Assembly: GCF_013087525.1 (NCBI RefSeq)
Contig: NZ_JABFCS010000001.1
Span: forward strand, 3,782,001 to 3,846,000
Length of the DNA stretch: 64,000 bases
Reading direction: 5' to 3'
Source of the DNA: Ramlibacter montanisoli
GTDB lineage: Bacteria > Pseudomonadota > Gammaproteobacteria > Burkholderiales > Burkholderiaceae_C
Shown piece after piece: positions 1-20,884 of this stretch (its first letter is position 1; every line of letters starts with the position of its first letter). The notes beneath the pieces are model-generated. The model had not been told where the DNA came from. It saw only the letters and a program-made list of their open reading frames with translations, and made no database searches. Made by a program: the position numbers and the translations under genes.

Positions 1-131
1 GAACTGAAACTCACACATGCTATCTCGGCAACCGGACGACATTTCACGAATGGGGCTACGGTTGTGGCGAGTGCCCGGCGTGTGATCTGCGACGCAAGGG
101 CTACGAGGAATACGTCCGAGGTCCTAAGTAA
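1..131 (+). CDS. queC: QueC, 7-cyano-7-deazaguanine (preQ0) synthase, C-terminal end only
   Basis: Only the last 42 codons are in the window (reading from base 3 to the TAA at 129-131). They hold the zinc-binding signature typical of the QueC C-terminus: an early Cys in THTCYLGN, then [12 protein letters not shown], giving four cysteines in the C...CxxCxxC arrangement. QueC converts 7-carboxy-7-deazaguanine to preQ0 using ammonia and ATP. The stop codon overlaps the ATG of the next gene by one base (TAATG), so the two are translationally coupled. The neighbouring queD/queE genes and the dpd genes indicate that this copy feeds preQ0 to DNA modification rather than, or in addition to, tRNA queuosine. 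The call rests on a short tail but the Cys pattern and context agree. Confidence 0.85.
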
Positions 132-1225
132 TGTGCGCCGCACAGCTTTCAGTTGCCACGTCTGGATTCGAGGCCGCCAGGCAGGTGGCGATCCTGCCGG
201 AACGGCACCGCAGCCGTCGACTTCACGGGCACAGCTTCGCCGCCACGGTATTCGCCGAGATGGCAAACGGAGCAGTGAGTTTTCCCGGTGCTGAAGTGGG
301 TACTCTCTCGGAGCGACTCGAGGCGTGCATCGCGCCACTGAATTACGCATTCCTCAACGACCACCTAGAGATGCCCACGGACGAAAACCTGGCCCGGTGG
401 ATCTGGCAGCGTCTCGGTGTTCGTGGCATTGCGCGGGTTGCTCTCCAGAGCACGTCCGGCAGTGGCGTGGACCTCGACCGCGGCCGTGCGGCGCACGTGT
501 GGCGGCGGTACCGGTTTCAGGCGGCCCATCGCCTTCCCAACGTTGCGGCAGATCATAAATGTGGGCGGATGCACGGGCACGGATTCGAAGTGGTCATCCA
601 CGCCAATCAGGATCTCGGCGCCCGCCACATGAGCATCGACTACGACCACCTCGACGAATTATGGGCGCCGCTGCACTTTGAACTTAACTACCACTCCCTC
701 AATGAAATCGAGGGGCTGCAAAATCCCACCAGCGAGGTGATTGCCGCGTGGATCTGGCGGAAGTTGAAGGTGGGCTTGCCCGAGCTCTCCTGGGTAACCG
801 TGTACGAGACCGCGTCTTGTGGTGCGAACTTCGATGGCCGGGAATACCGGATCTGGAAGGAGTTCAGCTTCGACAGTGCGACCGCGCTGCGGCACGCGCC
901 CCAGGGGAACGCGAGGGGCGGGCTTCATGGTCACACATATCAATTGCGACTGCACATGAAGGCGCCACTTGATGAAGCCATGGGCTGGACGATTGACTTC
1001 GGTGACGTCAAGAAGAACTTCGATCCGATCTTTAAGGCGCTAGACCACCAGCCATTAACCGAAATGGACGGCTTGCGCGACGGCGATACCGGCAGTCTCG
1101 CAGCGTGGATCTTCGCGCAGGCGCGTCCCAAGATTCCCGAGCTCTCCCGCGTCGATCTGTACGAAACTCCGGGCTGTGGGACTCTACTTGCGGAGAGTCT
1201 CGCCGGCCCCTGCATGCCCGTCTGA
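131..1225 (+). CDS. Triple-domain QueD-like 6-pyruvoyl-tetrahydropterin synthase (PTPS) fusion
   Basis: A 364-residue protein made of three tandem QueD/PTPS-like domains (about 1-122, 123-242, 243-364), about three times the usual QueD length. Domain 1 keeps only HGH (32-34); its first zinc His is Arg17, the Cys position is Ser28, and the Asp-His pair is Asn71-Tyr72. Domain 2 has the full zinc/Cys site (AAH at 131-133, Cys144, HGH at 148-150, Glu226), but its Asp-His pair is Asn186-Tyr187. Domain 3 has lost the first His (Thr251) and the Cys (Arg262), but keeps HGH (266-268), Asp305-His306 and Glu345. In PTPS enzymes the Cys and the Asp-His pair come from neighbouring subunits, so domains 2 and 3 may together form one active site. 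This is inference. The gene is coupled to queC; QueE follows after 4 bases. Confidence 0.85.
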   Translation: MCAAQLSVATSGFEAARQVAILPERHRSRRLHGHSFAATVFAEMANGAVSFPGAEVGTLSERLEACIAPLNYAFLNDHLEMPTDENLARWIWQRLGVRGIARVALQSTSGSGVDLDRGRAAHVWRRYRFQAAHRLPNVAADHKCGRMHGHGFEVVIHANQDLGARHMSIDYDHLDELWAPLHFELNYHSLNEIEGLQNPTSEVIAAWIWRKLKVGLPELSWVTVYETASCGANFDGREYRIWKEFSFDSATALRHAPQGNARGGLHGHTYQLRLHMKAPLDEAMGWTIDFGDVKKNFDPIFKALDHQPLTEMDGLRDGDTGSLAAWIFAQARPKIPELSRVDLYETPGCGTLLAESLAGPCMPV

Positions 1226-1229
1226 CACT

Positions 1230-1859
1230 ATGTACTCGGTCAAGGAAATCTTCTACACGCTGCAGGGCGAGGGCTTGCGTGCAGGGCGGCCCGCGGTGTT
1301 CTGCAGGTTTGCCGGATGCAATCTGTGGACTGGGCGCGAGGAGGACCGGCAACGGGCGATTTGCCAGTTCTGCGACACCGACTTCGTCGGCACAGACGGC
1401 AGCGGGGGCGGCAAGTTCCGAACGGCCCTCGAGTTGGCTCGCGCCATAGCCGCCTTCTGGCCAGCCGGAGAGGGCCACCGCTACGTGGTGCTCACTGGCG
1501 GCGAGCCACTGCTGCAAGTTGACACGGCACTTGTAAACGCGCTTCACGCTGAAGCTTTCGAAATCGCCGTCGAAACGAATGGAACCTTGCCGGCTCCTGC
1601 CGGCATCGATTGGATTTGCGTCAGCCCGAAGGCGGGCGCCGCATGGGTGCAGCGAACCGGAGCAGAGTTGAAGTTGGTGTACCCCCAGCGGGGCCTAATG
1701 CCGAACGAGGTCGAGTTAGCAGGATTCGATCACTACTTGTTGCAGCCAATGGATGGACCGGCCGCCGCCGATAACACCCGCCGGGCCATAGAGCACTGTC
1801 AGGCGCATCCGGGCTGGCGGCTTTCAGTCCAAACACACAAGATATTGGAGATTCGCTGA
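1230..1859 (+). CDS. queE: QueE, 7-carboxy-7-deazaguanine synthase (radical SAM)
   Basis: A 209-residue radical-SAM enzyme that rearranges 6-carboxy-tetrahydropterin to 7-carboxy-7-deazaguanine in the preQ0 pathway. The N-terminus (SVKEIFYTLQGEG) is typical of QueE. The cluster-binding cysteines are widely spaced, with C-X14-C-X2-C running from GCNLW to ICQFCDTDF, as in Burkholderia QueE, rather than the classical CX3CX2C. The glycine-rich SAM motif LTGGEPLLQ and the VETNGT strand follow. I chose the ATG at 1230, just after the stop of the QueD fusion; an upstream in-frame start would run into that gene. Its TGA overlaps the ATG of the single-domain QueD (TGATG). No frameshift is seen. Confidence 0.93.
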   Translation: MYSVKEIFYTLQGEGLRAGRPAVFCRFAGCNLWTGREEDRQRAICQFCDTDFVGTDGSGGGKFRTALELARAIAAFWPAGEGHRYVVLTGGEPLLQVDTALVNALHAEAFEIAVETNGTLPAPAGIDWICVSPKAGAAWVQRTGAELKLVYPQRGLMPNEVELAGFDHYLLQPMDGPAAADNTRRAIEHCQAHPGWRLSVQTHKILEIR

Positions 1860-2308
1860 TGGACGCATCGTCTCCTGTGGTGAGCACGCTTTCCACGGCC
1901 CGGGTAGATTCGCGAACAGAGGTTTGCGAACTGTCTCAGCGCTTCTTCTTCGAGGCCGCCCACACGCTGCACCGCTCCATCGAAACCGAAGGAAGTTTGC
2001 GTATCCATGGCCATACCTACGAGGCCGAAGTGACGCTGTGCGGCCGACCGGACCCCCAAACGGGCATGCTGATAGATCTGGGCTACCTGCGCTCCGAGAT
2101 TGCTCGGGTACGGGAGTTGCTGGACCACCGCTTCTTGGACGAGGTGGCCGACTTGGGTCCAGCGACGCTGGAGAATCTGTGCGCCTTCCTTCGCAGACAG
2201 TTGCAGGCCAACCTGCCCTTGCTGTGTTCCGTGATGATTGAGCGTCGCGCCAGCGGCGACAAGTGCGTCCTGCGCTGGCCCGTAGCCTCCAACATCTCAA
2301 TGCAATGA
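1859..2308 (+). CDS. queD: Single-domain QueD paralogue with Ser in place of the catalytic Cys
   Basis: A 149-residue PTPS/QueD-family protein. It has the first zinc His in FEAAH (His35), the HGH pair (50-52), the LDH Asp-His pair (89-90) and the pterin-anchoring Glu128 in MIERR. The residue four before HGH, which is the catalytic Cys in QueD, is Ser46. Normal QueD turns dihydroneopterin triphosphate into 6-carboxy-tetrahydropterin; a Cys-to-Ser change would be expected to impair that, so this subunit may work only together with the triple-domain protein, or may do a different PTPS reaction. The first 20 or so residues extend beyond the usual N-terminus; a later start is possible, but the ATG overlapping the queE stop supports this one. 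The ATGA overlap at its 3' end couples the next gene. Confidence 0.8.
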   Translation: MDASSPVVSTLSTARVDSRTEVCELSQRFFFEAAHTLHRSIETEGSLRIHGHTYEAEVTLCGRPDPQTGMLIDLGYLRSEIARVRELLDHRFLDEVADLGPATLENLCAFLRRQLQANLPLLCSVMIERRASGDKCVLRWPVASNISMQ

Positions 2309-2792: not shown

Positions 2793-5054
2793 TCATGAGG
2801 CCTGGGAAGCTCGCTTCGCCATGAACTGAGCGACCGCGTCCACCATACTGCTCGTACCCGCGCCTTGCGCCATCTCCAGTGGTTGGTCGGGCCGGCTTGC
2901 AGCCTTGATGCAGTAGTAGGCTGCGTGCTTGCTGGTCTTCCAAGCGAAGACGAAGATCGCAGACCGTTGCACCAAGGCCTTCAGTTGCGGAGTGCAGACG
3001 GAGTCCGAATTCAAGCGCACGTCAATGGGCCCGTACGTCGACTGGAGGATTTGCACCGCCCGGCGACCTGCAGCCTCGTCGAGGGTATAGATGCCAATGG
3101 TTCCCACCTCTGCACTCTGGCGGCCTGCGGAGGAGCCGGGTGCCGTGACACGCTGCGGAAGAGCCAGGTCGATCCCGGCCTCTTGTGCCAGCATGAGCAG
3201 CATCGCAATTTCAAGCTCGCCTATCCTGCTGGCAAATTCCTGACCGGCGACCGTCGTGGCGGTTAGCAGGCGCAGTCGGGCCGCTGGTTCGGGACAGGCC
3301 TCCATCGCCAGCACGTCGCAGACGTCCAGCGCCCATCGCATGTGATGTGGGGAGCGCACCTGCTCGAAGACGAGGCCGATGTCCTCAAGGGTTTTTGCAT
3401 ACTCAGGTGCGGTCAGGCCCGCCTGCACCAGATGCTTGAGCACATCACGCACCAGCCTCAAGTCCACATCACTGAACGTGCCTGGCAGCCGCAAGGTCTC
3501 CAACAGCGCGGCATACACAGGCTTGCACTGGGGGCGGGGCTCTGCCCTCGCCACAAACACCTCGTGCCAGAGCGGTGCGATGCGACCGAAGACAGCGGGG
3601 TACTCCAGGGCCAGTTGCTCCAGAAGGTTGGCTGCTTCGGTGCCGAAGTCTTGCTCGCGCAACAGTTCATCGACCTCAGCCACCCGCGCCCATTCCTTCC
3701 AGCGGTCGACATAGGCATCGATGCTCTCGCCGAGGTTAGGATGCCAAGCCATGCGCTGCGCCCAAGTCATCTGGTCGGCAGGGGCGAGTCGGGCGAGTTC
3801 CCGAACGCGCGGCCAGGTTTTCGGACAGCGTGCCTCCACATCGGCCTGAACAGGAGGAGGCGCCGCCTCGATGCGCTCCTTGAGCGCCTGAGCCCGCTGC
3901 AAGTTCCTGGATTCGTCGACGCACCGGATCAGCGCGCGCAGGACGTCGACGCTGTCCGGCAGCGGCCACAGCAGGTCTGTGGCCCGGTCGAACTGCTCGT
4001 GCTCGTAGGCCTGCCAAGCGTCACTGGCAGGGTCCACGGGGGTCTGCAGGTGGGTCACTGCCTGTCGCACTTGCGCCTCCAGCGCACCCCAGGCGCCGCC
4101 TGGCAGTTGCTGCAGGAGTAGATTGACGACTTCCGCCTGGGGCGACGGCTGCAGTAGTTCGAAGAGCACGAACGCCTTGAGGACCGCCGGGCGCTGCGAC
4201 TGCCGACGCGTGCGGAACAGGGGGTAGGCCCGTTCAAGGAGGTTGCCCTTGAACTCCTCCAAGACCCTGTCCAGCGGTGCACCCTGCTCGAACGGGAAGA
4301 CATCCGCCATGTACAGGCCCTCGAGGACGTCCCCGTAAGTTTCCTGCGGCAGATTTAGCTTGGTTAGGGTGCTCAGCAGGCGATGGCCGGCGATACGGTC
4401 CCAGTGCTCGAGTCCTGCAAACAACCGGATTTCGAGGTAGAGGCGGTTTTCCGCGGAGATCCCGAACCGGTCCCTCATTGCGGACAGGGCCAAGTGGGCG
4501 GCCCGCTCGTCGCGCGCCAGCAGCGCGCGGTCGAAGTCGGCACGCAGCGCGTCAAAACTCTTTGGAATGCGCGCCACTATGGCGGGCCGCCGCTCCAGTA
4601 GGTCGCGGTACATGCGCCACTTGTGCAGCAGACGGCCGTCCTGTTCCGGGCCCTGTGTCCACATGACGAAGTGACGCAACCCGCCGCGCCTGAGCAGGGG
4701 CTGTGCATGGCGGTCGGCATCAAACCGGCCGTCCTCGGGCAGGCGGAACCAGGCATAGGTGGGACCGATGAAGGCCTTCAGTTCGGCCTCTAAGGCCCGC
4801 AATTGGCACTCGCTGGCCGCGCAGGCATACCAGACGGTGAAGACGTCGCCCTCAAGCCGTACCGGTAGCAGTAGCGGCCTGTCCACCTGACCCTTAGCGT
4901 GGTGCCACAGCTCGCCTTGCAGTGCCGCCATGGTGGGAGCCAATTCCTCGGGGCAGTCCTGCGGCAAGAGCCGGAACAAGTTGGGCGGCCTGAAGAAGCC
5001 GGCTTGCAGTTCCAGTGCCTGAGTGGCTGCCGCGTCTGTTTCAGGGGTGCTCAT
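2793..5054 (-). CDS. dpdD: DpdD-like protein
   Basis: A 753-residue soluble protein, last gene of the leftward dpd operon. No enzyme motif is obvious. The middle is helical and repeat-like (rich in Leu, Ala, Arg), and the C-terminal 100 residues form an alpha/beta segment (TIGIYTLDEAAGRR, then IFVFAWKTSKHAAYYCI, ending with GAGTSSMVDAV). I assign DpdD from size, that C-terminal pattern and its place with seven other dpd genes. The start at 5054 overlaps the dpdK stop by 14 bases; a longer frame reaches 5111, but that extension reads as dpdK antisense-frame noise. In Dpd systems DpdD is not needed for making the modified base and is grouped with the restriction genes. The exact role is unknown. 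It converges with the preQ0 operon across 60 bases with no clear terminator. Confidence 0.65.
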   Translation of the reverse strand: MSTPETDAAATQALELQAGFFRPPNLFRLLPQDCPEELAPTMAALQGELWHHAKGQVDRPLLLPVRLEGDVFTVWYACAASECQLRALEAELKAFIGPTYAWFRLPEDGRFDADRHAQPLLRRGGLRHFVMWTQGPEQDGRLLHKWRMYRDLLERRPAIVARIPKSFDALRADFDRALLARDERAAHLALSAMRDRFGISAENRLYLEIRLFAGLEHWDRIAGHRLLSTLTKLNLPQETYGDVLEGLYMADVFPFEQGAPLDRVLEEFKGNLLERAYPLFRTRRQSQRPAVLKAFVLFELLQPSPQAEVVNLLLQQLPGGAWGALEAQVRQAVTHLQTPVDPASDAWQAYEHEQFDRATDLLWPLPDSVDVLRALIRCVDESRNLQRAQALKERIEAAPPPVQADVEARCPKTWPRVRELARLAPADQMTWAQRMAWHPNLGESIDAYVDRWKEWARVAEVDELLREQDFGTEAANLLEQLALEYPAVFGRIAPLWHEVFVARAEPRPQCKPVYAALLETLRLPGTFSDVDLRLVRDVLKHLVQAGLTAPEYAKTLEDIGLVFEQVRSPHHMRWALDVCDVLAMEACPEPAARLRLLTATTVAGQEFASRIGELEIAMLLMLAQEAGIDLALPQRVTAPGSSAGRQSAEVGTIGIYTLDEAAGRRAVQILQSTYGPIDVRLNSDSVCTPQLKALVQRSAIFVFAWKTSKHAAYYCIKAASRPDQPLEMAQGAGTSSMVDAVAQFMAKRASQAS

Positions 5055-5564
5055 ACGAATCGAAGTGGGCCCGGGCCTCGCCCACGCTCTCCGGCGCGAA
5101 GCTGATGTCAACGGATTCGTCCAGCAGGCGGATGCCGTTGCGGGTGAAGTTCATGGAGCCACTGACCAGGATCTGGTCTGTCAGGATGCCCTTGGTATGA
5201 AGGTGGCGATGCACCTTCCACAGGCATTGTCCCGAGACACCGGCGTCGGCCAAGGCCTCTTTGAGGCTGGACTCGAAATACCGGTTGTGGTCGTCGGTCC
5301 CAACGTGCAGGTGCAACCGTGCGCCGCGGGTGGCGAGCGAGGCCAGAACCTCCACCAAGTGGATGTCGGTTCTGGGCCATTCCGGGTTCAAGGCCATGAA
5401 ACCCCTTGGCGGTTGTCCAGGATGGGTATGTTGCTAATCCACGGGGCGACGATGAACACGTGCTCGCTGGGCAGTAGCAACTCCTGGGTGAAAACGAAGG
5501 CCAGCGCTTCGTGGACCGCGGACTGCGAGGTGGTGGCGTTCTTGAAGATCTTGCGCACGGGCAT
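5041..5564 (-). CDS. dpdK: DpdK, phospholipase D-like protein (one apparent frameshift)
   Basis: About 174 residues once a base is restored in the GGGG run near 5404. The N-terminal half (VFIVAPWISNIPILDN) leads, after the repaired frame, into FMALNPEW and on to the catalytic PLD motif HTKGILTD (H-x-K-x4-D) followed by GSMNFTRNG. One HKD motif per chain means that a dimer would form the active site, as in small PLD-family nucleases. The ATG overlaps the dpdJ stop by one base (TGATG). DpdK belongs to the proposed restriction part of Dpd systems, where a PLD nuclease accompanies the helicases. The substrate is not shown by the sequence. Confidence 0.8.
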
Positions 5565-8500
5565 CACAGCGTCTCCACCAGTTCCAGCCGCAGCACGATG
5601 GATCCGACCGTCCGAGCCACCGACAGCAGGCGCGGGTAGACATTGAGGTATTCCATCTGCACCGGCTGGGTAGTCAGGGCCTGCATCACCTGGGACAGCA
5701 CCTCCCGATCATGGGGCAGCGCCACGCTGGCGCGGCCGCGTTCCCTCAAGCGTGCGTGGACTTGGCCGAGCCAGTTATCCTCGGCCGCGGGCACGGGTTC
5801 GTCCGGCGGAGTCAACCATCGGCTCAACACCAGACGCTCCGTGACTGCCGGCACCAAGTCGTATCGCTGCTGCAGAGGCAGCGCATTGGCACGCAATGCA
5901 TGGCCGCGGGCCCAGATGACCCCCATGAGCATGCTGAACCGCCAAACCTGCCGCTGCGAAGTCGGCGGCGGTTCCAGCCCCGCACCGGCGAACACCGCGT
6001 CGATTCGCTGGTCTTGGCTAAAGATGGCGCAGATCACGCGGGCGTCGACCTCTACCTCCAGCCGCTCCTCCAGTTGCGTCCAGGTCTCCAAGAGTTGCGC
6101 AAGGATGCGGTCCAGTCCGTCCGGTGTGCCGGGCCGCAGGACCCTGTTGGCGATCGCCGCCACGTACCCGTGGAAGACGCTGTGCCCAGTCTGGACCAGC
6201 TGGAACCGTAGTGCCGCGATTGCCTCCTGCGCCTGCTGCGTGTTCTGGCTGTGACGCACGGCCTGCACCCGTCCCAGGAGATCATGGTCCGGCGTTTCTC
6301 CACCGATGCGCCCGATAAAGTTGCGCAATTGCTGGTCGATCACCTCGAACTCCGACATGCCCAAGGCAGCTTCAACCTGCTGGTAGAAGCCGACCGGGTC
6401 GGTCGCAAGCGTCTCGATGACCTGTTCGATCAGGCCGTTGCCACCCGGATTGATTTCGGTGATCCAGATGCGATGGCCCGGTTCAATCTCGCCACTCTCA
6501 TTGGGGCCGGCGTCCACGTCGACCGCCAGGTCGTCGCCGTCCACCTGGGGACAACTGGTCTGGATCGCCTCTACCAACGCGGCCGCCAAGGTGTGCTTCA
6601 TGACCCGGGTCAGCCAGGCGTCCCATGACGCGTCCACCGGTTCCAACAGGTGCTCGCCGATCGCGCGCAAGCTGGCGATGACATCGGTGCGTGCCAGACC
6701 TCTGCGCAGCTTGTCGCGTAGGCGATCGGGATCCTTGGCCTGGCCGTTTGCCCCGCGGCCTTCGTCGTCATCGTCGCCGCCTTCGTCGTCGGATGGTGCC
6801 GGGGCCTGGAACAGGGTCTCCAAGATGGGCTCCAGCGCCAAGTTTTGGGGGCTCGCGGCGACCCAGTCAAGGGCGGTGCGCAGGTCGTCGCCGTCCTGGG
6901 TGCAACGCTGCATGATGGCCGTGAGGAAGATCTCGGCCATCCAGTGGCGAAGGAAGACGTTTGGCTCCAGAGCCTCGAGGCCTTGGCCGTCTCGCGCCTC
7001 GCAGAAATATCGGGCGGTTCGCAAGCCCCTAAGAGTGGGTGCATGGTCGAGGTCTACCGCCAAGTGCGGACTCAACGGCAGGTCCAGTTCGAACCTGAGT
7101 GCATCGACGTCAATCTCAAAGCCAACGCCACAGGGCCGCCCGCGGTAAGTGAACCGGAAATCGATGCGCTGGTCGACGGTGGACTCCCCGTGCCCGCCGC
7201 GGCCGCAAGAGAGCCCCCAAGCGCAGGCTGGCGATAGACCCCACTGCATAACGTCGCACGCAGGTCGGCGACTGGGCGGCATGGGTATGAGCACGCACCC
7301 CGGAAACGAGGGCGGCGATCCCCACCCTACCGTGCGGCGGGGGAAGGGGTGGCCCTCGCGACGGGCAAAAACCTGAGAACTCCACACGAGACGCGCATTA
7401 GAAGTCGCCTTCACCAGCGGGAAGTTAGGATTGCCGTCGTCGGGCGTCGGCTGGAGTTTGAGAACGCGCGGACGGAAGGCGGGAAGTTGCTCGACCTGCC
7501 GGCCATGCTCGACGTGGAAACCTTGGTGGGGCTCCAGGTCGTACCAATCGCTCACTTCGACATCGAGTGTGGGTTCGAGGTCGCTGTCCTGCACTGCCTG
7601 GAGCAACCTGGCCTCATCCACTCCCAACCACAGCGCATGGTCATAGCGCTTGGAGACCTTGCCCGGCGCCATCTCGCCCAAGGCCTGCTGCACTGGCAGG
7701 TAGGACTCCCGTTCGGCCTGCGGCCGGTCGATGCGGACCTCGGGAAGGCTCAGGTCGCTGAACAGGGTGCCCGGCACGAATTCGGGCAGGGGATGGTTCG
7801 TACGGTAGTCCGTTTGGGGCTGGCCGTTGGCCTCCCAATTGCGTTCGAGGCGCCGTAGCGCGGTGGGCGCGGCCTCCAGCAGCAGCGGGCGAGGATGCTC
7901 CCAGAGCAGGGCATCCACGCTCTGTCGCGGGAGGTCCAGAGCGGCCATCAAGTGCTGGGCCAGGCTTTCGGCATCGTCGGGTCGGGTCAGCAAGGAATGG
8001 AGAAGCCGCTCCATGCGCTTGCGGCGCACGTGGAAGGCAACGCCGCGACGCGCGGCGTGTACGGCCAAGCCGTCTTGCAAGGAACTGACGATCCTCCAGG
8101 CATCGGACTCCAGTTTCCCGAATCGCTCTGGGGTGAGCGGAAAGTCGTTAGTGCGGACCAACCCCATCAACGCCTGTTTCATCGCGGGCGTTAACCGGCG
8201 ATGCGTCTCCGGCGGTCCGGACAGGTCCTGCCAGACCGAGCCCCTTGGCAGACCAGCCTGCATCTGCACGCCCAGGTAGTCCAGCAAGGCGTAGACCGCC
8301 TGCATGCGCTGCACGTAGCGATTACCCATGGGCAGGTCACGCGGGGGCAATTCCGGGTCGAAGAACTGCTCGTAGGCTTGGTAGGCTTGGCGGTCGCGGC
8401 CATAGTCGGATAGGACCATGATGGTCCAGGGACGCATGTGACGCGTACGTCCTGCGCGCCCTTTGCGCTGCAGGAACTGCGCCATGTCCCGCGGGGCCTT

Positions 8501-10381
8501 GTGCTGCAGGACCATCCCCACGGCCTCGTCGTCGTACCCCACCTCGAGTGCGGCAGTAGCGACAACGATCTCGGTGTGGTCCGCGACGCCGGAGTCGTAG
8601 GCGGTCGTGCGCCCGACCTGGTGGCGCTTGCGCAGGTCGTGCCCAATCTGCACCGGCAGACGCCAGTCCTGGCCGGCTTCATAGCGGCCGCTGTTGACCA
8701 GGTCCGGTTGGCGCAGGTGTGCCAAGCCACCATCTGGATGGCGCCGCGTGGCTTCCCGGCCTTGGGCGGTCCGGCCCTCGGCATCCAGCAGGTCCGCGTA
8801 CAGGCGGTTCGTGGCGTCCATCTGGTCGGTGAACGCGAAGGCACGCCAACCGGCGAACGGCCGGGAGGCCCGGTCGAACTGGCCACGGGTGTCCAGAAGA
8901 CGGCTGCCGAGCATCAGCGTCTGAATAGACGTTGACAGCAACGCAGCCTGGGACACCGGATCTCCGCGCAGGGCGACCATGTACTCGGCACCTTCGCTGT
9001 CCATGTCATCCGGACTGGGCGTGATCTCGCTCACGGCGGTTTCATTAAGCCCGACGAGCGAAGCGAAGAAGCGCTCTCCTTCAGAGATCGTGGCGGACAG
9101 TCCCACGAAACTGGCCCGTCTCCCACTCAGCCGAGACCAGCGCCGCAGTAGGTGGGCCACCTGGGCGCCGTAGGTGCCCGAGTAGACGTGCACCTCGTCG
9201 AGCAGAACCAGGGAGGGCGTGCGCTCGGCATCCGGTCCCAGCCCGAACAGGTGGCGCATGTCGGAGTCCGCCATCCGCTGGTTCAGCATCTCGACGGAGG
9301 TGAACAGGATGTCGGGTGGCTGCTCCTGCATGGATTGGCGCGTCAGGTGCAGGGTAGTGCGGTCGACTTGGTGGCCGCACTTCACGCAGGTCAGGCGCTG
9401 CAGTTTCCCCTCAAGGTCCTGCGGCACCACCCCCATCGAGGAATTGCAGCCCGGTGCTGGGCACTTGAAAAACGGGCAGGCACCTTGGTGGTCGTTCCAG
9501 GCGTACTTGATGGAAGCGAGCGTGTTCGGCGTATCGCCGTACAGCACGCCCACGCTGATCGGCCGTCCACCGCGGTTGCCCAGCAGGTCGTCGAATTTGC
9601 GCGCTTGGCTGTAGACCTCAGACAACTGATCCTTGAGAAGCTCGTTGCGCGGGTAGATTGCCAGGATCCGCACCCCACCCGAGCGCGGGTGGGTCAGTTT
9701 CTGGGCGGCGAGCCAGCTTAGCGCGGGCAGGTAGAAGGCCAGGGTCTTGCCGCTGCCGGTGCCGGCGGACACCAGGGTGGCGCTGACGTACTGCTGGTCC
9801 AGGGCCCCGAGGATGCGCGAGGCCGCATCCAGTTGAAAGCGGCTGAGTTGCCATCCGGGACTGGCCTTTCCCAGCCAGTGGCGCACGGCGTGAAGGGTCT
9901 CCTCGGACTGCACGCTGGATGCCAGGGACTGCTCTGCGTCCTGTATCCCCAGGTTGCGTTTCGGGTAGCGGCGTGGCCGCCATAGCAGGCGGTAGTCGGC
10001 CACCAAGGTCGGGGCGGCGGCCCAGCCGGTCGGCCCTTTGTGGCGGGGCATCAACTGGCGCAATCGGGCGAGCAGGCGCAAGCCTTCCGCCATGCGGGTG
10101 CGCCAGCGCTGGGGCGCCTCCAGCCCGCGAGCAGGTACCTCGAAGATCAGTCCAAGCAACTTCAGGCGCTCGAGCAGGTCCTCGGCCGTATGCACGGTGC
10201 AATCAGCCCGCCCGCGGACCTCCACGTACTTGTCACCCAGGAAGACGCCGTTGAGAACATCATGGACCTCCTGGTCGCCAAGGGCCGAATCTACCAAGCC
10301 CCAGACCAGGACCCGCACCTCGCGCTGCTCCAGCGCGTTCAGGGCCGCTTCCACCAGGGCTAGGTCAGCACTGAGCGTCAT
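5564..10381 (-). CDS. dpdJ: DpdJ, large DEAD/DEAH-box helicase
   Basis: A 1605-codon reading frame encoding a superfamily 2 helicase. Visible motifs are AGTGSGKT (Walker A, 206-213), an RNELLKDQ region, LLDEVHVYSG (DEAH-like motif II), SATIS (motif III) and RKGRAGRTR (motif VI). Two CxxC-like pairs between motifs I and II suggest a small zinc module. The long C-terminal part resembles DUF1998-type helicase tails only loosely. The frame is open throughout, but between about 7215 and 7350 (residues 1010-1055) the translation looks wrong. Reading the -1 frame there gives a sensible stretch (RVGIAALVSG, CVRRYAVGSIASLR), and three single-base losses in C and G runs would restore the frame. The start ATG overlaps the dpdI stop (ATGA). 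A role in restriction of unmodified DNA is inferred from the family. Confidence 0.85.
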   Translation of the reverse strand: MTLSADLALVEAALNALEQREVRVLVWGLVDSALGDQEVHDVLNGVFLGDKYVEVRGRADCTVHTAEDLLERLKLLGLIFEVPARGLEAPQRWRTRMAEGLRLLARLRQLMPRHKGPTGWAAAPTLVADYRLLWRPRRYPKRNLGIQDAEQSLASSVQSEETLHAVRHWLGKASPGWQLSRFQLDAASRILGALDQQYVSATLVSAGTGSGKTLAFYLPALSWLAAQKLTHPRSGGVRILAIYPRNELLKDQLSEVYSQARKFDDLLGNRGGRPISVGVLYGDTPNTLASIKYAWNDHQGACPFFKCPAPGCNSSMGVVPQDLEGKLQRLTCVKCGHQVDRTTLHLTRQSMQEQPPDILFTSVEMLNQRMADSDMRHLFGLGPDAERTPSLVLLDEVHVYSGTYGAQVAHLLRRWSRLSGRRASFVGLSATISEGERFFASLVGLNETAVSEITPSPDDMDSEGAEYMVALRGDPVSQAALLSTSIQTLMLGSRLLDTRGQFDRASRPFAGWRAFAFTDQMDATNRLYADLLDAEGRTAQGREATRRHPDGGLAHLRQPDLVNSGRYEAGQDWRLPVQIGHDLRKRHQVGRTTAYDSGVADHTEIVVATAALEVGYDDEAVGMVLQHKAPRDMAQFLQRKGRAGRTRHMRPWTIMVLSDYGRDRQAYQAYEQFFDPELPPRDLPMGNRYVQRMQAVYALLDYLGVQMQAGLPRGSVWQDLSGPPETHRRLTPAMKQALMGLVRTNDFPLTPERFGKLESDAWRIVSSLQDGLAVHAARRGVAFHVRRKRMERLLHSLLTRPDDAESLAQHLMAALDLPRQSVDALLWEHPRPLLLEAAPTALRRLERNWEANGQPQTDYRTNHPLPEFVPGTLFSDLSLPEVRIDRPQAERESYLPVQQALGEMAPGKVSKRYDHALWLGVDEARLLQAVQDSDLEPTLDVEVSDWYDLEPHQGFHVEHGRQVEQLPAFRPRVLKLQPTPDDGNPNFPLVKATSNARLVWSSQVFARREGHPFPRRTVGWGSPPSFPGCVLIPMPPSRRPACDVMQWGLSPACAWGLSCGRGGHGESTVDQRIDFRFTYRGRPCGVGFEIDVDALRFELDLPLSPHLAVDLDHAPTLRGLRTARYFCEARDGQGLEALEPNVFLRHWMAEIFLTAIMQRCTQDGDDLRTALDWVAASPQNLALEPILETLFQAPAPSDDEGGDDDDEGRGANGQAKDPDRLRDKLRRGLARTDVIASLRAIGEHLLEPVDASWDAWLTRVMKHTLAAALVEAIQTSCPQVDGDDLAVDVDAGPNESGEIEPGHRIWITEINPGGNGLIEQVIETLATDPVGFYQQVEAALGMSEFEVIDQQLRNFIGRIGGETPDHDLLGRVQAVRHSQNTQQAQEAIAALRFQLVQTGHSVFHGYVAAIANRVLRPGTPDGLDRILAQLLETWTQLEERLEVEVDARVICAIFSQDQRIDAVFAGAGLEPPPTSQRQVWRFSMLMGVIWARGHALRANALPLQQRYDLVPAVTERLVLSRWLTPPDEPVPAAEDNWLGQVHARLRERGRASVALPHDREVLSQVMQALTTQPVQMEYLNVYPRLLSVARTVGSIVLRLELVETL

Positions 10382-11099
10382 CGGACGCAGCTCCTCACGA
10401 TGTACCTTCCCAACTGGTCATTTTTCGACAGCCACGCCAACACGGTGGGCGTGACTAGGGCAAGGGAGGCCCCGCCTGCGTTGAGGGCGCGGAAGAACTC
10501 CTCGACGTCGGTCGGAGCGTCAAACCGCAGCCGACCGGCAATCTCCTTGCAACTGTCGATGGCCTGAGCGAAGGCCTCCGGGTCGCTTGCGGATCTCGGA
10601 TTTTCCATGCTGGCCAGCCGCGAGGCGGCGCGGTACTGCGCCTCGTAATCGGCTAGTAGTGCGTCATTCTGGGGCAGCGGCGAGGCGGTGGCCCGCAGTT
10701 GGTGGGAGGGCGTCAGCTGGCGGAATTCCTCCACCTTGAGCGCCCAGGCGCGCTTGACTTGATCCCACGCGGCGCCGGCAGTCTTCTGCGCCGTCTGCAG
10801 CAGTCGGACCCAGAGATCCCCTTCCGTCAGGGACTCGATGTCCGCGCGCTGCTCGAGACGCTGAGCCGCTTCATGCGCAAGTTGCCGCGTATGAGTGAAC
10901 TGCTCCGGGTAGGACGCCAGCTGTGATAAATCGACATTCAGCCAGTCGGCCCGCTGGCGTGCCGCATTGAGGACGCCCAGTTTTCATTCCATTGCTGCAT
11001 GCGATGTTCGATGGCCTCGCCGTCCTGGGCGCCCCGACGAGCCGTTTCCAACTGCGCGAGCGTCGACTCCAGGCTGCTGCACAATTCCATCAACTTCAT
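10378..11099 (-). CDS. dpdI: DpdI-like protein (one apparent frameshift)
   Basis: About 240 residues when one A is restored in the AAAA run near 10981 (the frame then reads NEKLGVLNAARQRADWL). The protein is helical and charged, with a coiled-coil-like N-terminal half (SLESTLAQLETARR, HEAAQRLEQRAD) and no catalytic motif that I recognise. It is assigned as DpdI from its place between dpdH and dpdJ and its size. It is bracketed by ATGA overlaps with both neighbours, so it is almost certainly translated as part of the operon. It may be a structural partner of the DpdH ATPase or DpdJ helicase; that is inference. Confidence 0.65.
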
Positions 11100-14000
11100 G
11101 GCGCTTCTCCCAGGGAACGCAAGTTCTTGATCAACTGGCCCATCTTCTCGGCGACATCCGCGCCGCCCTCGGCACGCAACTGCGCCGTTGCGTTCCTCTG
11201 CGTGGCCTTGACCAAAGCGGCGACGCTATTGAGCGCATGGTTTGCCGTACCGAGCAGGACCACGTCCACCTTGGCCCATGTGGTCAACTGCGCCTGTAGA
11301 GTGTCGTCAGCGCCCGGCTCGCTGAAGTCACTAAGGGCTCGGAGAAACTCTCTCGCATCGGGCGTTTCCATCCACGCGATTGACCGCTCGATCTCCGCCA
11401 TGTTGGTGCATTGGCTGGCAAGGACGCCGGCCTTCCGCGCGCTAGAAACCACGGCGTTTAGCGCGGCCGGGACGCCGGCATCAAAGGTGGGCCCTGCCAA
11501 CTCGAGCACGCCGGGCCTGAGCGACCTGACGGCGTTGCCAAGGCGCGTTACCACCGACTGCAGGCGCGTCGCCGACAACTCGCCGATCGCGGTGCCCAGG
11601 GACACGTCGTCGAACCGAAGCTGACCCGTCTCCGCTCCTTCCTCCGTGGCCTTCCATGCCTTCGCTGCCCGCACGCTGTCGATGGCATGCGGCGTTGCCC
11701 CGTCGCCCTGGAAGCAACAGACCTTCTCCAAATAGAGCTTGCGCAGCGCCTCGCGCGATTGGATGGCCCTTTCCTGGAGAGCGATGACCTGCCCGACGTG
11801 GGGCACTTCGCGTAGCGCTTCGCTCGCCTGCATCGGCACCGCAACAGCGAGCATCTCGGCAAACCGGGGTTTGGCCGGATCCCCGCGCTTCGCCAGACGC
11901 AACAGGAGTGCCTGCCGATGCAGGATGCGCCCCAGCACGGCCGCCTCCCGCTCGGCCTTTTGCACGAAGTAGGCACGGGCTTGCTGCTCCAGTTGGTCCA
12001 GGAGCGCCTGGGCATAGGCATAGTCGTCCTCGGCAACGGGGTAGTCCCAGTTGCTGCCGTTGACGTCCCACCGGTCCAGTGCAGCCAGCGCGCGCCGAAC
12101 GGTGGCCGGGATGGGCCGTACTTCAGGCGCTACCACGAACTTGGGAGTGGAGGTCGGGTTGCCAACCTGCGCAAACGGCAGCCAGAAGAACTCCTTCCTG
12201 ATCTGACCGTAGGCCATACGCAGCGAGTTCCAGTCCATGCGCTGGCCCAGAGCCGTCGCTAGCACGGTGCGAAGCCGGTTGGCCCGGGTCTGCGTCAAAG
12301 GGCCGGTCGCCCACGCTTCCAGGTCCTGCTCCATGCCTGAGGTGCCCAGTTGCTGTACTGGCGGCGGTGAGGCAGGCGGGGAATGAGTGCCCCCTGCGGT
12401 TGGAGGAGGTGGTGGTGGCAGCGGCGCGGATGCGACGCCGAACGGCCAAGGCAGGCCAAAGGCCTCAAACACGCCCCGTGCCACTGCCGGCGGGTCGCTG
12501 AGGTTGCGCGGATCGCCGGCCCAGAAGGCCAGTAATGGCACCAATCGATCGTGGACGCCCGCATCGCGGCCCTGCGAGCGCAACTCCAGATCCGCGTTGG
12601 TCTTGAGCGTGGCGGCCTTGAAGTTGGGCGGCGGGAATTGGCCGTTTAGCTGCGCGTCCCGCTTGAGCAACACGTCGCGCAGCACCGCGTTTATGAACTT
12701 GCGCGGGTTGAACAGCAATTTCCCGTCGACGGTCATCTCGCGCCGCGCGAGCACACTAACGGCCAGTGGCGACAGGGGAAAAAGAGGATGCCCGCTCTCG
12801 GTGCCGAAGGCCTCCAGTTGCTCCTGCTCCTGGTCCTCCAGTTCCAGCCTGAAGGGTCTGACCCAGGCGTTGAGATCCTGTTCCTGGCTGTCCCGGAACT
12901 GCTCGCGCAAAGCCTCAACGCCCCACCTCGCCGCGTTGAGGTAGCGGCCGGCCATACGGGTGAGGCGCTGGATTACCTCCTCTTCGGAGGCACCCATGTT
13001 CGGGATCACCCATTCGCGCTTGGCCCGTGTCAGGATGGTCTGCCGACTGGGCAGGAAGCCGTCGGTGACGGCGAGCGCGGTGCGCAGCGGCGCTCGTACA
13101 CGATGGCCCCCGTGGTCGCTCTCGGAGATCATGAGGCTCAGGAGAGTTTCCTGGATGCCTGCGAGCGCCGCGAAATCCTCAATCAGCAGAATCAGTTCCT
13201 TCCCGTCCTGCAGGAGGCGGGCGCGGATGTCGTTCACGATCTCCTCGAGCGTGCGCTGGCCCAGTGCCTCCGAGAAGCGGAAGACGCTCCTGAGCGCAGC
13301 ATCCAGTTCGTCTTGCAGCACCCGTGCCGCCACCGACGCGCCGGCGCCGTCGTTACCCTGCAAATGCTGGATGTAGACTTGGGCCTCGCGGGAGACTGTG
13401 GTGACGTCGAAATCCGCGGGCACTGCGAGATCCCCGGGCACGAAGCGCCGCGGATCGCCCGAAGATGATTCGCTGCCTCCATTGAGTGCCTGGCCAACGA
13501 TCCGCAGCAGCACCGGTTGGAGCCAATGATCGAAGGTCTCCCCTGAAACAGGACAGTCTGTAGTCCGCGCGCATGGAGCGCGCGCTCGCGTAGGGACCGA
13601 TCGTTGGCGTTGCCGGCCTTCAACTCGGCGATCCACTGTTTCTCACGTGCCTTCAGTTCTATGGTCAGCGCAGTGGCCAGCATTCGGCTGGCAGTCTCGG
13701 GGTTGAGCGTGTCAGTGGCCCGCCCAAGTTCTTGGCGCAACCGCCCGAACTCCTTTCCTTCCAAGGGAGCCAGCATGAGCTCGACGACCTGGCGCAGACT
13801 GGCTGTCTTGGGCACCAATACGATCACGAGCCGGTCGCGCTGTAGGTGCCGCTGCAGCTGGGCATGGAGCCACCGGATCATGTGGGACTTGCCCACGCCG
13901 GAGTCACCGGTGATCGCGACGACAACCGCGCTGCCGTCATCCGCCGGCGCAAGGAAGGCGTCCAACAACTCGCCCTCAGTCCTTGCCTGCTCCGCGCCGG

Positions 14001-14136
14001 TGCCGACCTCGCGCACCTTCAGCGGCATAGGTTCGTGGACAGCCAGCAGGACGGCATCGTCCGCCGTTTCAGCCTCCGTGCGGATACAGTCATTGATCGC
14101 CTTGAGCGATGGCCAGAAGTCGATCAAGTGGTTCAT
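11096..14136 (-). CDS. dpdH: DpdH, large P-loop ATPase (one apparent frameshift)
   Basis: About 1013 residues after restoring one G in a GGGG run near 13547, which joins LQTVLFQ to GETFDHWLQPVLLRIV. The N-terminal AAA/STAND-like ATPase domain has Walker A GDSGVGKS (77-84) and a Walker B-like LILLIEDFAAL near residue 315. The remainder is a long helical region with a proline-rich linker around 12380-12420 (PPPPPPTAGG). It is assigned as DpdH from size, ATPase type and position between dpdG and dpdI. Both ends overlap their neighbours as ATGA. In Dpd systems it belongs with the genes implicated in excluding foreign DNA; how ATP hydrolysis is used is unknown. Confidence 0.78.
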
Positions 14137-15041
14137 GCCGCGGCCCTCCGGGCGTCCGCGCGACGGATCCAGGTGAATCGCAGGTCGGTGCGAACACCAG
14201 CTTGCCCAGTGAACACAACGCCGGAGCGGGTGTCCGCGCGGTTCTCCAGAAAGATCTCCTCGTTGCGCATCAGGTTCAGCAATGCACGCGACAGTGAGGT
14301 CGACAGTTGCCCCTCGGCAAGTGACGGCAAGGCTTCCTGCCGCAGGTGGGACTGCACCTCGCGCCGCCAGACACCGCCGTCCAGAACTGGTAGCTTCATC
14401 GCAAGCTCATCGATGAAGCTCGCCACGGGCGAGCTCTGCTCCGGTTGGAGGAGGTCTGGCAGCACGTCCCGGATCGCGACCGTCGGATCTACTTCGATCT
14501 CCGGCTTGAGAACGGGCCTAAGGAAGCCGAGGAACTGCCCCCAAACCTTTAACCCGGAACGGCGAGTGTTGTTCTGCATGAGTGGCGGCGTTCCGTCCAC
14601 CAATTGGCTGCGTTCAAGCACTTCCAAGTTTGCATACAGGGGACGGTAGACGTCTTGGGCCAGGACCCACGCAATCGACTTTGTGAAGTCGGCTGCGCGG
14701 GAACTCTCGGTGGCCCAAAGGTCCCCATTGTTGTCCGGGTGCAGGGCGCGGGCGCGGGCGGCGGTCCTGACCTGGGCAACGAGGTCGATGTCCTTGTCCA
14801 GTCGTTGTTGCGGACGCTGCGCCAGTTCGATGCCTTCGCTGCCCTCGATGAAAAGCCCCAGCTCGATCCAGCGCCCTAGCGTCTGACGAGCCTGCTTGCC
14901 GTCCTCATTGGCCACACCCTTAGGGGCAACGGTCTCGACGAGCTCGTCGCGGGCAACCGGTCGCGTGCTACGCGCCAGCGCGTCATACAGAACAACCAGG
15001 ACATTAGGTAATCCGTCTGAGGCGAGGTTGAGTATGCTCAT
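14133..15041 (-). CDS. dpdG: DpdG-like protein
   Basis: A 302-residue protein with no known catalytic motif. The first 60 residues (LPNVLVVLYDALARSTRPVARDELVE, then a helix ending RWIELGLFIE) look like a winged-helix DNA-binding fold; this is inference from the pattern. I start at 15041, where MSILNLAS begins, because the ATG overlaps the dpdF stop (ATGA); the frame is open 44 codons further upstream but that extension lies inside dpdF and is Arg/Pro/His-rich noise. No frameshift is needed. It is assigned as DpdG by its operon place between dpdF and dpdH. Function unknown. Confidence 0.68.
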   Translation of the reverse strand: MSILNLASDGLPNVLVVLYDALARSTRPVARDELVETVAPKGVANEDGKQARQTLGRWIELGLFIEGSEGIELAQRPQQRLDKDIDLVAQVRTAARARALHPDNNGDLWATESSRAADFTKSIAWVLAQDVYRPLYANLEVLERSQLVDGTPPLMQNNTRRSGLKVWGQFLGFLRPVLKPEIEVDPTVAIRDVLPDLLQPEQSSPVASFIDELAMKLPVLDGGVWRREVQSHLRQEALPSLAEGQLSTSLSRALLNLMRNEEIFLENRADTRSGVVFTGQAGVRTDLRFTWIRRADARRAAA

Positions 15042-17595
15042 CTGGAAAGATCGTTCACGACTTCTTCGGCATGGATGTGAGGGGTGGTGTCGATCAAGCG
15101 ACGGCCTGGATGGACGGGGTGCACCAAGTTGTCGGGGATGACCAGTATCTCTAGGGCGGCACGGGACGTCCACAGAGCATCAGGGATCGGCACAGCCGTT
15201 CCAAGTCCCCAGACAGTGAGCCGCACCTCGTTCTCTCCGGTCGCCTGGCCCGTCATGCCGCCAGCGCGGAGGTCCTCGACAAATGGCCAGGTGGCCGGCG
15301 GTTGGCCTGATCCCTTCAGTACAGACTCCTCTAGGCCGGCGGCTACTCCTGGCCCCAAGACCAGGGTGTGGGGATGAAGCACGTGGATCAGCACGCGCAG
15401 GACCGCATGGCATCGGCCCGCATAGTGCGCATTCGAAGGCACCGAGATAAAGAGCAGGTTGTCGGTGGCCAGCGGCCATCGAGAGGTCCAGGGCTTGTGG
15501 CGCTCTCGCAAGCTGAAGTGGTTCAGGCGCGGAACCACGGGCGCGACTGGCCTGCTCTGCCAGCGGGTAGCGCCCCAGTGCGCGGGGCAGCCGCCGCAAT
15601 ACTGCGCCACGGGTGACCAAATGCCGTCGCGCATGATTGAATAGGTCTGCCGGAGGGCTTGGGAGATCTCCATGCGGCCGGTGACCACCGAGAGCAGGGC
15701 CCGAAAACCCGCTTGGCCCGCTTCTCGTATCCGTGTGCGGCCTTCGGCCAGCGCTGCGTGGAAGGCCTCTTCTTGGCGGAGGTTGTCCTGCAGCAGTCGT
15801 ACCGCTGCGAACCGCGCGTCCTCCTCCGAAACTACTTCCTGAGGGCTCTCATCCCCGCGGGCTTTGGTAAGGGCCACCAACTCCAGCATTTCCGCCCGGG
15901 CCATCAGGATCAGCGTCTTGATGTTCCATTCGGCACTTGCATCGGAGTTCTGCACCAAGCGAGCGGGCAGGCGTTCAAGGTTGAGCCAGTACACATCAGT
16001 TTGATGCGGATCGTGCTGCGCCTGCTGGATCATGAGGCGCCATCGTTCGAAGGCGGTTCTTTCGCGGGCCACCTTGCTGATGGCCATGCGCCGGGCCTGC
16101 CCCATGTCCTCGTCTGTGTAGACGAGGATGCTGGCGCTCGCCAAGCCGTCCCGGCCTGAGCGCCCCACCTCTTGGTAGTAGCGGTCCAGCGATTCCGGCA
16201 GGGTGGAATGGATGATGGTGCGCACGTCACCCTTGTCGACGCCCAGCCCGAAGGCGGAGGTCGCCACCATTGCGTCGAGTTCGTTTCCCTTCCACTGGTT
16301 GAGCAATTTCTCGCGTTCCAGCGCACTCGTCTTTCCAGTGAAGGTGGCCAGTCGGGAATAGCCCGCGTTGCGCAACAGGCCTGCCCAGCGTTCGGCCTCG
16401 TCAGGGCGCGTCACATACAGGATGAACGGGCGCGGAGCAAAGCGTACGGTTTCCATGACCTGCTGCTGCCTCGCCGCCTCGGTATCTGCACGAGAAAACG
16501 CGTAGCGCGGCTCGGGCCGCAGGTAGACCCCTGCCACCAAATGGACGCGCTGGCCTGCGGAAAAAGGTGTTTGAGTGCGTCGATGGTCGCCGCAGTCAGG
16601 GTTGCCGAGGCCAGCACAAGACGCAGAGTCGACCCGGGGGCCAGTCGCTGAAGGCTGCGGATCAATGCCGGCAGCAACTGAAAGGCAGGCCGGAAACCGT
16701 TGCCCCAGCCAATCACCAAGTGCGCCTCGTCAACCACCACGTGGGAGACCCGGCCTGCCCGGGCGGCGTCCTCCAGAGGCGCTCGCAGCGTCGAGGTGGC
16801 ATGCTCGGGCGACAGGAACAGGACTCGCTGCCGGCCATCGCGGATGGCTTGCCACACTTCCCGCCGCTGGTCTTCCTTCAGACCGGCGTGGTAGGCCAGA
16901 GGCGGCAGGGAGGCATGCGGGTCGTGGGCCAGCAGAATGGACCGCATACGCTCGGCCTGGTCGATTGCCAGAGCCACGGTCGGAACGATCGCGACGGTGA
17001 TGCAACCGGGGTCGGCGAGCAGGGGCGGCAGTTGCGCCAGGACGCTCTTGCCGCTGCCTGTAGGCAGGTTGGCGATCAGGATTTCGCCCAATGGCAGTTG
17101 GACCAGAGCCCGCACAGCCTCGCGCTGCCCGTGGCCGGTGTAGGTGGGCAGCCCCAGCAACCGCTCGAAGACTGGATCGGCATTGATGCGCGTGTCGCTG
17201 CGGGCATGCACCTGGCCGAAGACTTCGTCCAAGAGGTCGGCCTGCGATCCGAGGAATGTCAGTCGCGGCGGTATGGCCCGGATGACGAGCCAGTCGCCGT
17301 TGTCCTGGGCCTCGAATCCCTCAGCGCGCCACTGGGTGGCGGTTGGCCAACCTCGGGCAGCAGGCACGCGCATGCGTGTACCTGCTTCCCGCGAGGCCGC
17401 ATGACCGAGCGATGCCTGCCGCAATAGGGGCATGAGATCCGACATGCAGGTTGCGTCCGGCCCAGCCCGTAGGCGAGTCAGGACTTGGCGGATGCGATCC
17501 AAGATTGGGTCCACCGCTTTTCGATCAGGAATCGGGACCGCGGGCCAATCGGCCATAGCCTCGAGCAGACTCGCGAGGTCGAAGTCCTGCGTCAT
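15038..17595 (-). CDS. dpdF: DpdF, RecQ-like DNA helicase (one apparent frameshift)
   Basis: About 852 residues after restoring one T in a T5 run near 16562, which joins TIDALKHLF to AGQRVHLVAGVYLRPEP. It is a superfamily 2 helicase of RecQ type: Walker A PTGSGKS (178-184), VVDEAHLVIGWG (DEAH 289-292), SATLT (motif III), then the second RecA domain with TSAFGLGVDKGDVR and motif VI QEVGRSGRDG. Near the C-terminus a CGGC pair (QYCGGCPAHW) may bind zinc. Start and stop overlap dpdE and dpdG as ATGA. DpdF is a standard member of Dpd clusters; a role in unwinding or translocating on DNA lacking the modification is plausible but not shown here. Confidence 0.85.
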
Positions 17596-20500: not shown

Positions 20501-20884
20501 CTGCCGCACCAGGAAACTCACCAGATTGCTGATCGGCCGACGCCAACGGATCTCCAGTTCGGAAGCAGGTACGTTCGCAATCTTCTTGTTGGGAAACTGA
20601 ACGAGCAGGTTGCTGCCCTCGCCGTCCAGAACCCGGCCGACCTGCCATCTCGAGGTCGCTTCGTCTAGCCTGTAAATCCGGGCCTGTGGAGGTAAATGAA
20701 CCGATTCAATCTGCGGGAGGGGGATCCGCAGCTGCGTAGGTTCAGCGTCGTACGGGTGGTCAAAGAAGCGGACCACTCCGGTGTCTGCTTCGGTGCTGAC
20801 GAGTTTGCCGATACCAAAGTGAACCCAAGGTGCCTGGCGGACGCGTACGAACTCGCCGACCATTGTCTGCCCCGCCTTTGCCAT
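17592..20884 (-). CDS. dpdE: DpdE, SNF2-family DNA translocase/helicase (one apparent frameshift)
   Basis: About 1097 residues when a C is restored in the CCCC run near 20255, joining FVLDNP to ASVLVVAPASLVDQW. The N-terminal 120 residues hold a barrel-like region with WQVGRVLDGEG, as in RapA-type SNF2 proteins. Motif I is DEVGLGKT (189-196) and motif II DEAH (about 270-273), followed by LLLSATPALTD. In the second RecA domain RVEQRMGRFDRFG is motif VI. It is the first gene of the eight-gene leftward operon; its ATG at 20884 faces the rightward HNH/dpdB genes. A small hairpin (20909-20924) lies in the 5' leader. In Dpd systems DpdE is among the restriction-side genes. Confidence 0.85.

Follow-up and report, generated by a model that had tools for sequence, protein, structure and literature searches.

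The 64,000-nucleotide stretch of Ramlibacter montanisoli DNA analyzed here (contig NZ_JABFCS010000001.1, positions 3,782,001 to 3,846,000; hereafter the window) starts within a Dpd 7-deazaguanine DNA-modification cluster, where an open reading frame on the forward strand (131-1225, ATG to TGA) encodes a 364-amino-acid protein made of three consecutive PTPS domains, an architecture that we call a triple. In agreement with the original prediction, the Pfam PTPS model (PF01242) scores 205.5 bits on this frame, matching it in three stretches, and the protein passes the NCBIfam QueD model TIGR03367 at 154.4 bits (cut-off 89.25). Alignment to single-domain QueD locates the catalytic residues in each domain, all encoded on the forward strand. 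The first domain (D1, residues ~5-119, nucleotides 143-487) retains a single element of the catalytic set, the HGH pair (H32 and H34, 224-232); its Glu is lost, and its first His, Cys and Asp-His are replaced by R17, S28 and N71-Y72. The second (D2, residues ~120-237, 488-841) carries a zinc/Cys/Glu half-site formed by H133, C144 (codon 560-562, in a CxxxHGH motif), H148, H150 and E226, with N186-Y187 in place of its own Asp-His. The third (D3, residues ~238-357, 842-1201) carries the Asp-His half-site, D305-H306 (codons 1043-1048), with T251 and R262 at the positions of the first His and the Cys. This distribution between D2 and D3 is the one that had been predicted. The accompanying claim that D1 keeps almost nothing holds for its first His, Cys and Asp-His but not for the HGH pair, which turns out to be invariant among homologues (see below).

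The chain as a whole possesses the three zinc histidines and the CxxxHGH motif expected of QueD (in D2), an Asp-His pair (in D3 only) and the PTPS fold, but none of its domains is complete, whereas canonical QueD has the full catalytic set inside one domain. Judged from its sequence, the protein is a variant of QueD rather than a canonical one. Since it passes the cut-off of the standard QueD model, ordinary annotation would hide the incompleteness of every single domain.

Conservation of the two half-sites

Full three-domain relatives are found in 4 of 60 related genomes (78, 61, 58, and 48% identity). Among 12 loci on named contigs, four are triples (78, 58, 39, and 37% identity) and the other eight single-domain matches. 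Among 399 genomes of the order, a profile search retrieved 76 with a match at E ≤ 1e-30, of which 62, belonging to 15 families, have a triple and 14 do not; in a sample of the phylum, 14 of 398 genomes have a full-length match at E ≤ 1e-45, including the genome of the window and G051. We aligned 71 distinct triples, namely the window protein and 70 others that are 38 to 78% identical to it. Sixty-three came from the order sample and elsewhere (the 62 order genomes minus G355 and G417, where the triple is in pieces, plus a second copy from G138 and loci L011 and L012) and eight were the ones aligned out of 12 further triples in the phylum sample; five exact duplicates were removed, and all 71 rows differ.

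The split recognized in the window protein recurs throughout this set. The His133/Cys144/His148/His150/Glu226 set of D2 and the Asp-His of D3 are intact in 71/71 triples. By contrast, the equivalent positions elsewhere are relaxed or lost: the first His is present in neither D1 nor D3 (0/71 each), D1 never has an Asp-His (0/71), and a Cys occurs at the D1 position in just two of the first 63 proteins (so that it is lost in 69/71) and at the D3 position in none of those 63. Despite the loss of its first His and Asp-His, D1 retains its HGH pair without exception (63/63 and 8/8, hence 71/71). The own Asp-His of D2 is absent in 59/71 triples and present in 12/71, all 12 among the first 63 rows and none among the eight from the phylum sample. 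At the DNA level, the window gene and its closest relative (L011) differ at codon positions 1, 2, and 3 by 0.187, 0.116, and 0.554 (raw differences), which indicates that the reading frame is under purifying selection. If one Cys half and one Asp-His half were kept at random among three domains, they would fall into a given adjacent arrangement in one case out of three; the argument therefore rests on the conservation in 71/71 proteins and on a half-site test.

For this test, the columns conserved in 12 single-domain QueDs (out of 15 single-domain loci tried, the motif filter that they passed itself demanding the Cys and HGH) were scored as two halves. The zinc/Cys/NPTSE/Glu half (20 columns) is retained at 0.956 in D2, 0.405 in D1, and 0.329 in D3, and the helix-1/Asp-His half (7 columns) at 0.719 in D3, 0.485 in D2, and 0.268 in D1. 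Selection thus maintains the two complementary half-sites in different domains, the zinc/Cys half in D2 and the Asp-His half in D3. The scores also bear on a simpler scheme, in which D2 alone would be catalytic, working with other D2 copies, and D1 and D3 would be scaffolds. Conservation is indeed highest in D2 (25 invariant columns, versus 10 in D3 and 3 in D1) and, as just said, some triples retain an Asp-His in it. Nevertheless, most triples have lost that pair whereas the one in D3 is never lost, and D3 conserves the Asp-His half but not the zinc half, which makes this scheme quite improbable.

Mapping the presence or absence of the D2 Asp-His on the family tree requires five changes, and well-supported branches make two of these unavoidable, although the tree is uncertain in places owing to long branches. 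In a tree of individual domains (25 of the 63 triples cut into domains, plus nine single PTPS), D1 (support 100/99), D2 (93/69, thus weaker), and D3 (99/99) each lie on one side of a branch, the pattern expected from one old triplication.

A probable role of the triple in the queuosine pathway

We considered 63 triple-bearing genomes, the 62 of the order sample and G025, a member of the same genus as the window whose locus is identical to that of Ramlibacter alkalitolerans. PTPS matches were listed at E ≤ 3.9e-7 and their positions compared with those of the triples by eye. In 61 of the 63 genomes, every PTPS match listed falls inside the triple, which is fragmented in G355 and G417. The two exceptions are G051 and the genome of the window, whose matches comprise the three domains of the triple and an adjoining single-domain PTPS (1859-2308, forward strand) with Ser in place of the catalytic Cys. 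Among the same genomes, 58 have QueC, 60 QueA, and four DpdA over the respective cut-offs. Within short flanks (~1-1.5 kb per side), 59/61 order loci contain a queE match and 34/61 a queC match; in the phylum sample these figures are 1/8 and 7/8, respectively. As the triple is the sole listed PTPS of most carriers and has been retained together with QueC, QueE, and QueA, it is best read, on this comparative evidence, as an active QueD for queuosine synthesis and probably represents the housekeeping QueD in most of them. The idea that it is a speciality of Dpd clusters can be discarded, 59/63 triple-bearing genomes having no DpdA over the cut-off.

The Ser-type protein raises another question, namely whether the adjoining single PTPS might be the working QueD and the triple a pseudoenzyme, either regulatory or decaying. 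Besides its position in the window, this explanation is favored by three relatives of the genus (G003, G017, and G033) that carry a similar single PTPS with an adjoining QueE match. It is very improbable, however, given that G025, the nearest relative, has no PTPS match besides the triple, that nearly all the carriers have none outside it among the matches listed and yet mostly possess QueC and QueA, and that the codon positions point to purifying selection. A different chemistry, for example that of a folate-type or biopterin-type PTPS, could be envisaged because COG0720 covers several functions, according to the accessible part of PMC5041015. But D2 possesses the CxxxHGH motif that the same part of that paper gives for PTPS-I, that is, for QueD, TIGR03367 passes its cut-off and a queE match adjoins nearly all order loci, so we regard a change of reaction as extremely improbable.

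One genome of the set, G138, carries two triples (L060 and L102); queE adjoins one of them and genes for DpdA and DpdB lie near the other, which suggests separate roles of the two copies in the DNA and tRNA pathways.

A candidate composite site between D2 and D3

In PTPS enzymes, the catalytic triad receives its Cys from one subunit and its Asp-His from another, and the title of Burgisser 1995, on the animal enzyme, names an intersubunit triad. If the same applies to the triple, the sole constant Cys, in D2, and the sole constant Asp-His, in D3, must meet, since D1 never has an Asp-His. We infer from the alignment a pairing of D2 with D3, most simply within one chain. An AlphaFold2 model of the window protein is compact (pTM 0.86, a value obtained in two members of the family), and successive domains are separated in it by about four residues, counted from the final strand of one to the initial strand of the following one (116-121 and 234-239). 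Searched with Foldseek, the model retrieves single chains of Escherichia coli QueD in first rank, and domain pairs taken from the models align structurally with uricase, GTP cyclohydrolase IB, and QueF.

The architecture, the conservation pattern, the scarcity of other listed PTPS in the carriers, the neighboring genes, and the compact model are best explained if the protein is, as seems probable, a covalent pseudo-trimeric QueD (6-carboxytetrahydropterin synthase) with one surviving composite site between D2 and D3; enzyme activity, a site geometry formed within the chain, and a single site per chain would be its consequences. Three tunnelling-fold (T-fold) units, which are separate subunits in canonical QueD, would have been fused head to tail so that the chain closes as a pseudo-trimer, and two of its three sites would have decayed. 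In the remaining one, Cys144, the three zinc histidines, the anchoring Glu226, and the NPTSE stretch would come from D2 and Asp305-His306 from the next domain, D3, with D1 as a scaffold completing the ring. In the window, the triple would make the preQ0 precursor for the Dpd cluster and presumably also for tRNA queuosine. The idea of a single D2-D3 site in the original prediction is strongly supported by the constancy of both halves and the relaxation or loss of their equivalents, and a confident three-domain model fits it; it must be qualified in that the loss of Asp-His from D2 is not universal.

The same residues could meet between chains, if pseudo-trimers dimerize or swap domains so that Cys144 of one chain faces Asp305-His306 of another. 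The conservation data fit this arrangement and the one within a chain alike and, in the accessible part of PMC7546909, canonical PTPS is described as two trimers forming a dimer, each site being shared by three monomers. Nonetheless, a single chain packs confidently alone in the models of both members, and the short distance between the strands of successive domains favors neighbors within the chain, so a site shared between chains appears rather unlikely.

Several observations weigh against an active D2-D3 site in one chain. The direction of the pairing (D2 with the next domain rather than the previous one) is chosen solely by the absolute conservation of D3, and only seven columns enter the half-site test for Asp-His. 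A scaffold role leaves the invariant HGH pair of D1 without explanation, D3 still keeps its Glu in 42/63 triples, and 12/71 retain the Asp-His of D2. As each PTPS site is described as bordered by three neighboring monomers within a hexamer (accessible part of PMC7546909), a second chain could take part in the site. The genomic context is not uniform either, with a queE match in a single one of the eight phylum loci and queC matches in little more than half of the order loci, and queC of the window's genome lies in two frames, so its cluster may be decaying or misassembled. Finally, the Ser-type single PTPS is the only PTPS match in G003 and G033, and a single PTPS without Cys the only one in G039, which implies that the Cys may be dispensable in some PTPS.

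If the D2-D3 reading is correct, the protein differs from known systems in its asymmetry. E. coli QueD (PDB 4NTK, 4NTM, 4NTN, and 3QN0; PTPS-I) consists of single-domain subunits with identical sites, whereas the triple unites three unlike domains in one chain and conserves a single composite set. Animal PTPS (1GTQ) shares its triad between units, as proposed for the triple, but is a homo-oligomer with all sites alike and a biopterin product. In uricase, GTP cyclohydrolase IB, and QueF, each chain likewise has more than one T-fold unit, namely two, but the chemistry is different. The herpesvirus dUTPases, unrelated to QueD in fold and reaction, offer a parallel in which a trimeric enzyme became one chain with one composite site by duplication and fusion. 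The eight sequences retrieved by a search of the PDB are 115 to 200 residues long, and none of them is matched by more than one domain. The reaction, the fold, and the family are therefore already known, and it is the covalent, asymmetric, one-site version that is without description in the open-licence literature searched, in line with the original prediction, whose author knew of none; the accessible parts of PMC5041015, PMC2229834, PMC6884629, PMC11888242, PMC7546909, PMC9508795, PMC10563805, and PMC13329287 do not describe a three-domain QueD.

The triple can be viewed as a natural experiment in which a symmetric multi-subunit enzyme is converted into an asymmetric single chain, and the order of site loss is traceable because homologues differ in the loss of the D2 Asp-His. 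It also permits tests of the intersubunit triad of PTPS in which a single copy is mutated, an option that a homotrimer does not offer. More tentatively, many bacteria may depend for queuosine synthesis on such a permanently asymmetric QueD, with two sites given up, the last one split over two domains and D1, whose HGH is invariant even though it can no longer form the site, freed for another role, for example to bind a second metal, to present a regulatory surface, or to dock QueE.

The Dpd cluster and other observations

Upstream of the triple lie genes for DpdB, DpdA (NF041059, 537.8 bits in L005), a second DpdB homologue, and queC. The two DpdB homologues (DGQHR), which differ from each other and flank DpdA, are both over the NF041060 cut-off (L005 11935-15422). 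QueC is found in this genome only as two pieces (L005 15422-16131), and its 3' end occupies positions 1-131 of the window, on the forward strand. Downstream, the triple is followed on the same strand by a QueE of the Cx14CxxC type (1230-1859; TIGR04508, 351 bits versus a cut-off of 240) and the Ser-type PTPS. The following genes are on the reverse strand and over the cut-offs of their models: DpdD (2793-5111, NF041061), DpdK (5041-5397, NF041068, profile positions 55-165 of 167), DpdJ (5564-10381, NF041067), DpdH (11096-13636, NF041065, matched from profile position 194 on), and DpdG (14133-15173, NF041064). Like queC, dpdF (15038-17595) and dpdE (17592-20884) are each in two pieces in different frames, and, taken individually, neither DpdF piece reaches the cut-off, nor does the shorter of the DpdE pieces. 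These splits reflect either assembly frameshifts or decay; in G025, queC is in one open frame. With DpdA accompanied by other dpd genes and with queC and queE both adjoining the triple, the locus is a Dpd 7-deazaguanine DNA-modification cluster. It shares with known clusters DpdA, B, D, G, H, J, and K over the cut-offs, DpdE and DpdF (split here), queC, queE, and queD, whereas most triples elsewhere are in genomes with no DpdA over the cut-off. The genome also has QueA and, elsewhere, a strong TGT match.

Beyond bacterial chromosomes, 76 pattern matches on viral contigs include none confirmed as a relative, and none of the 105 matches in plasmid records spans 80% of the query. In G039, the single PTPS (L031 1390-1788) stands beside QueE and has a shortened loop without Cys, with HGH and Asp-His present. 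A plasmid of Amycolatopsis sp. AA4 encodes a two-domain PTPS (L112 2480-3274) beside genes annotated as QueE and 7-cyano-7-deazaguanine synthase. Inspected by eye, its first domain has Ala in place of the Cys and no Glu, and its second looks complete; from these residues, it appears to be a separate fusion with partial decay.
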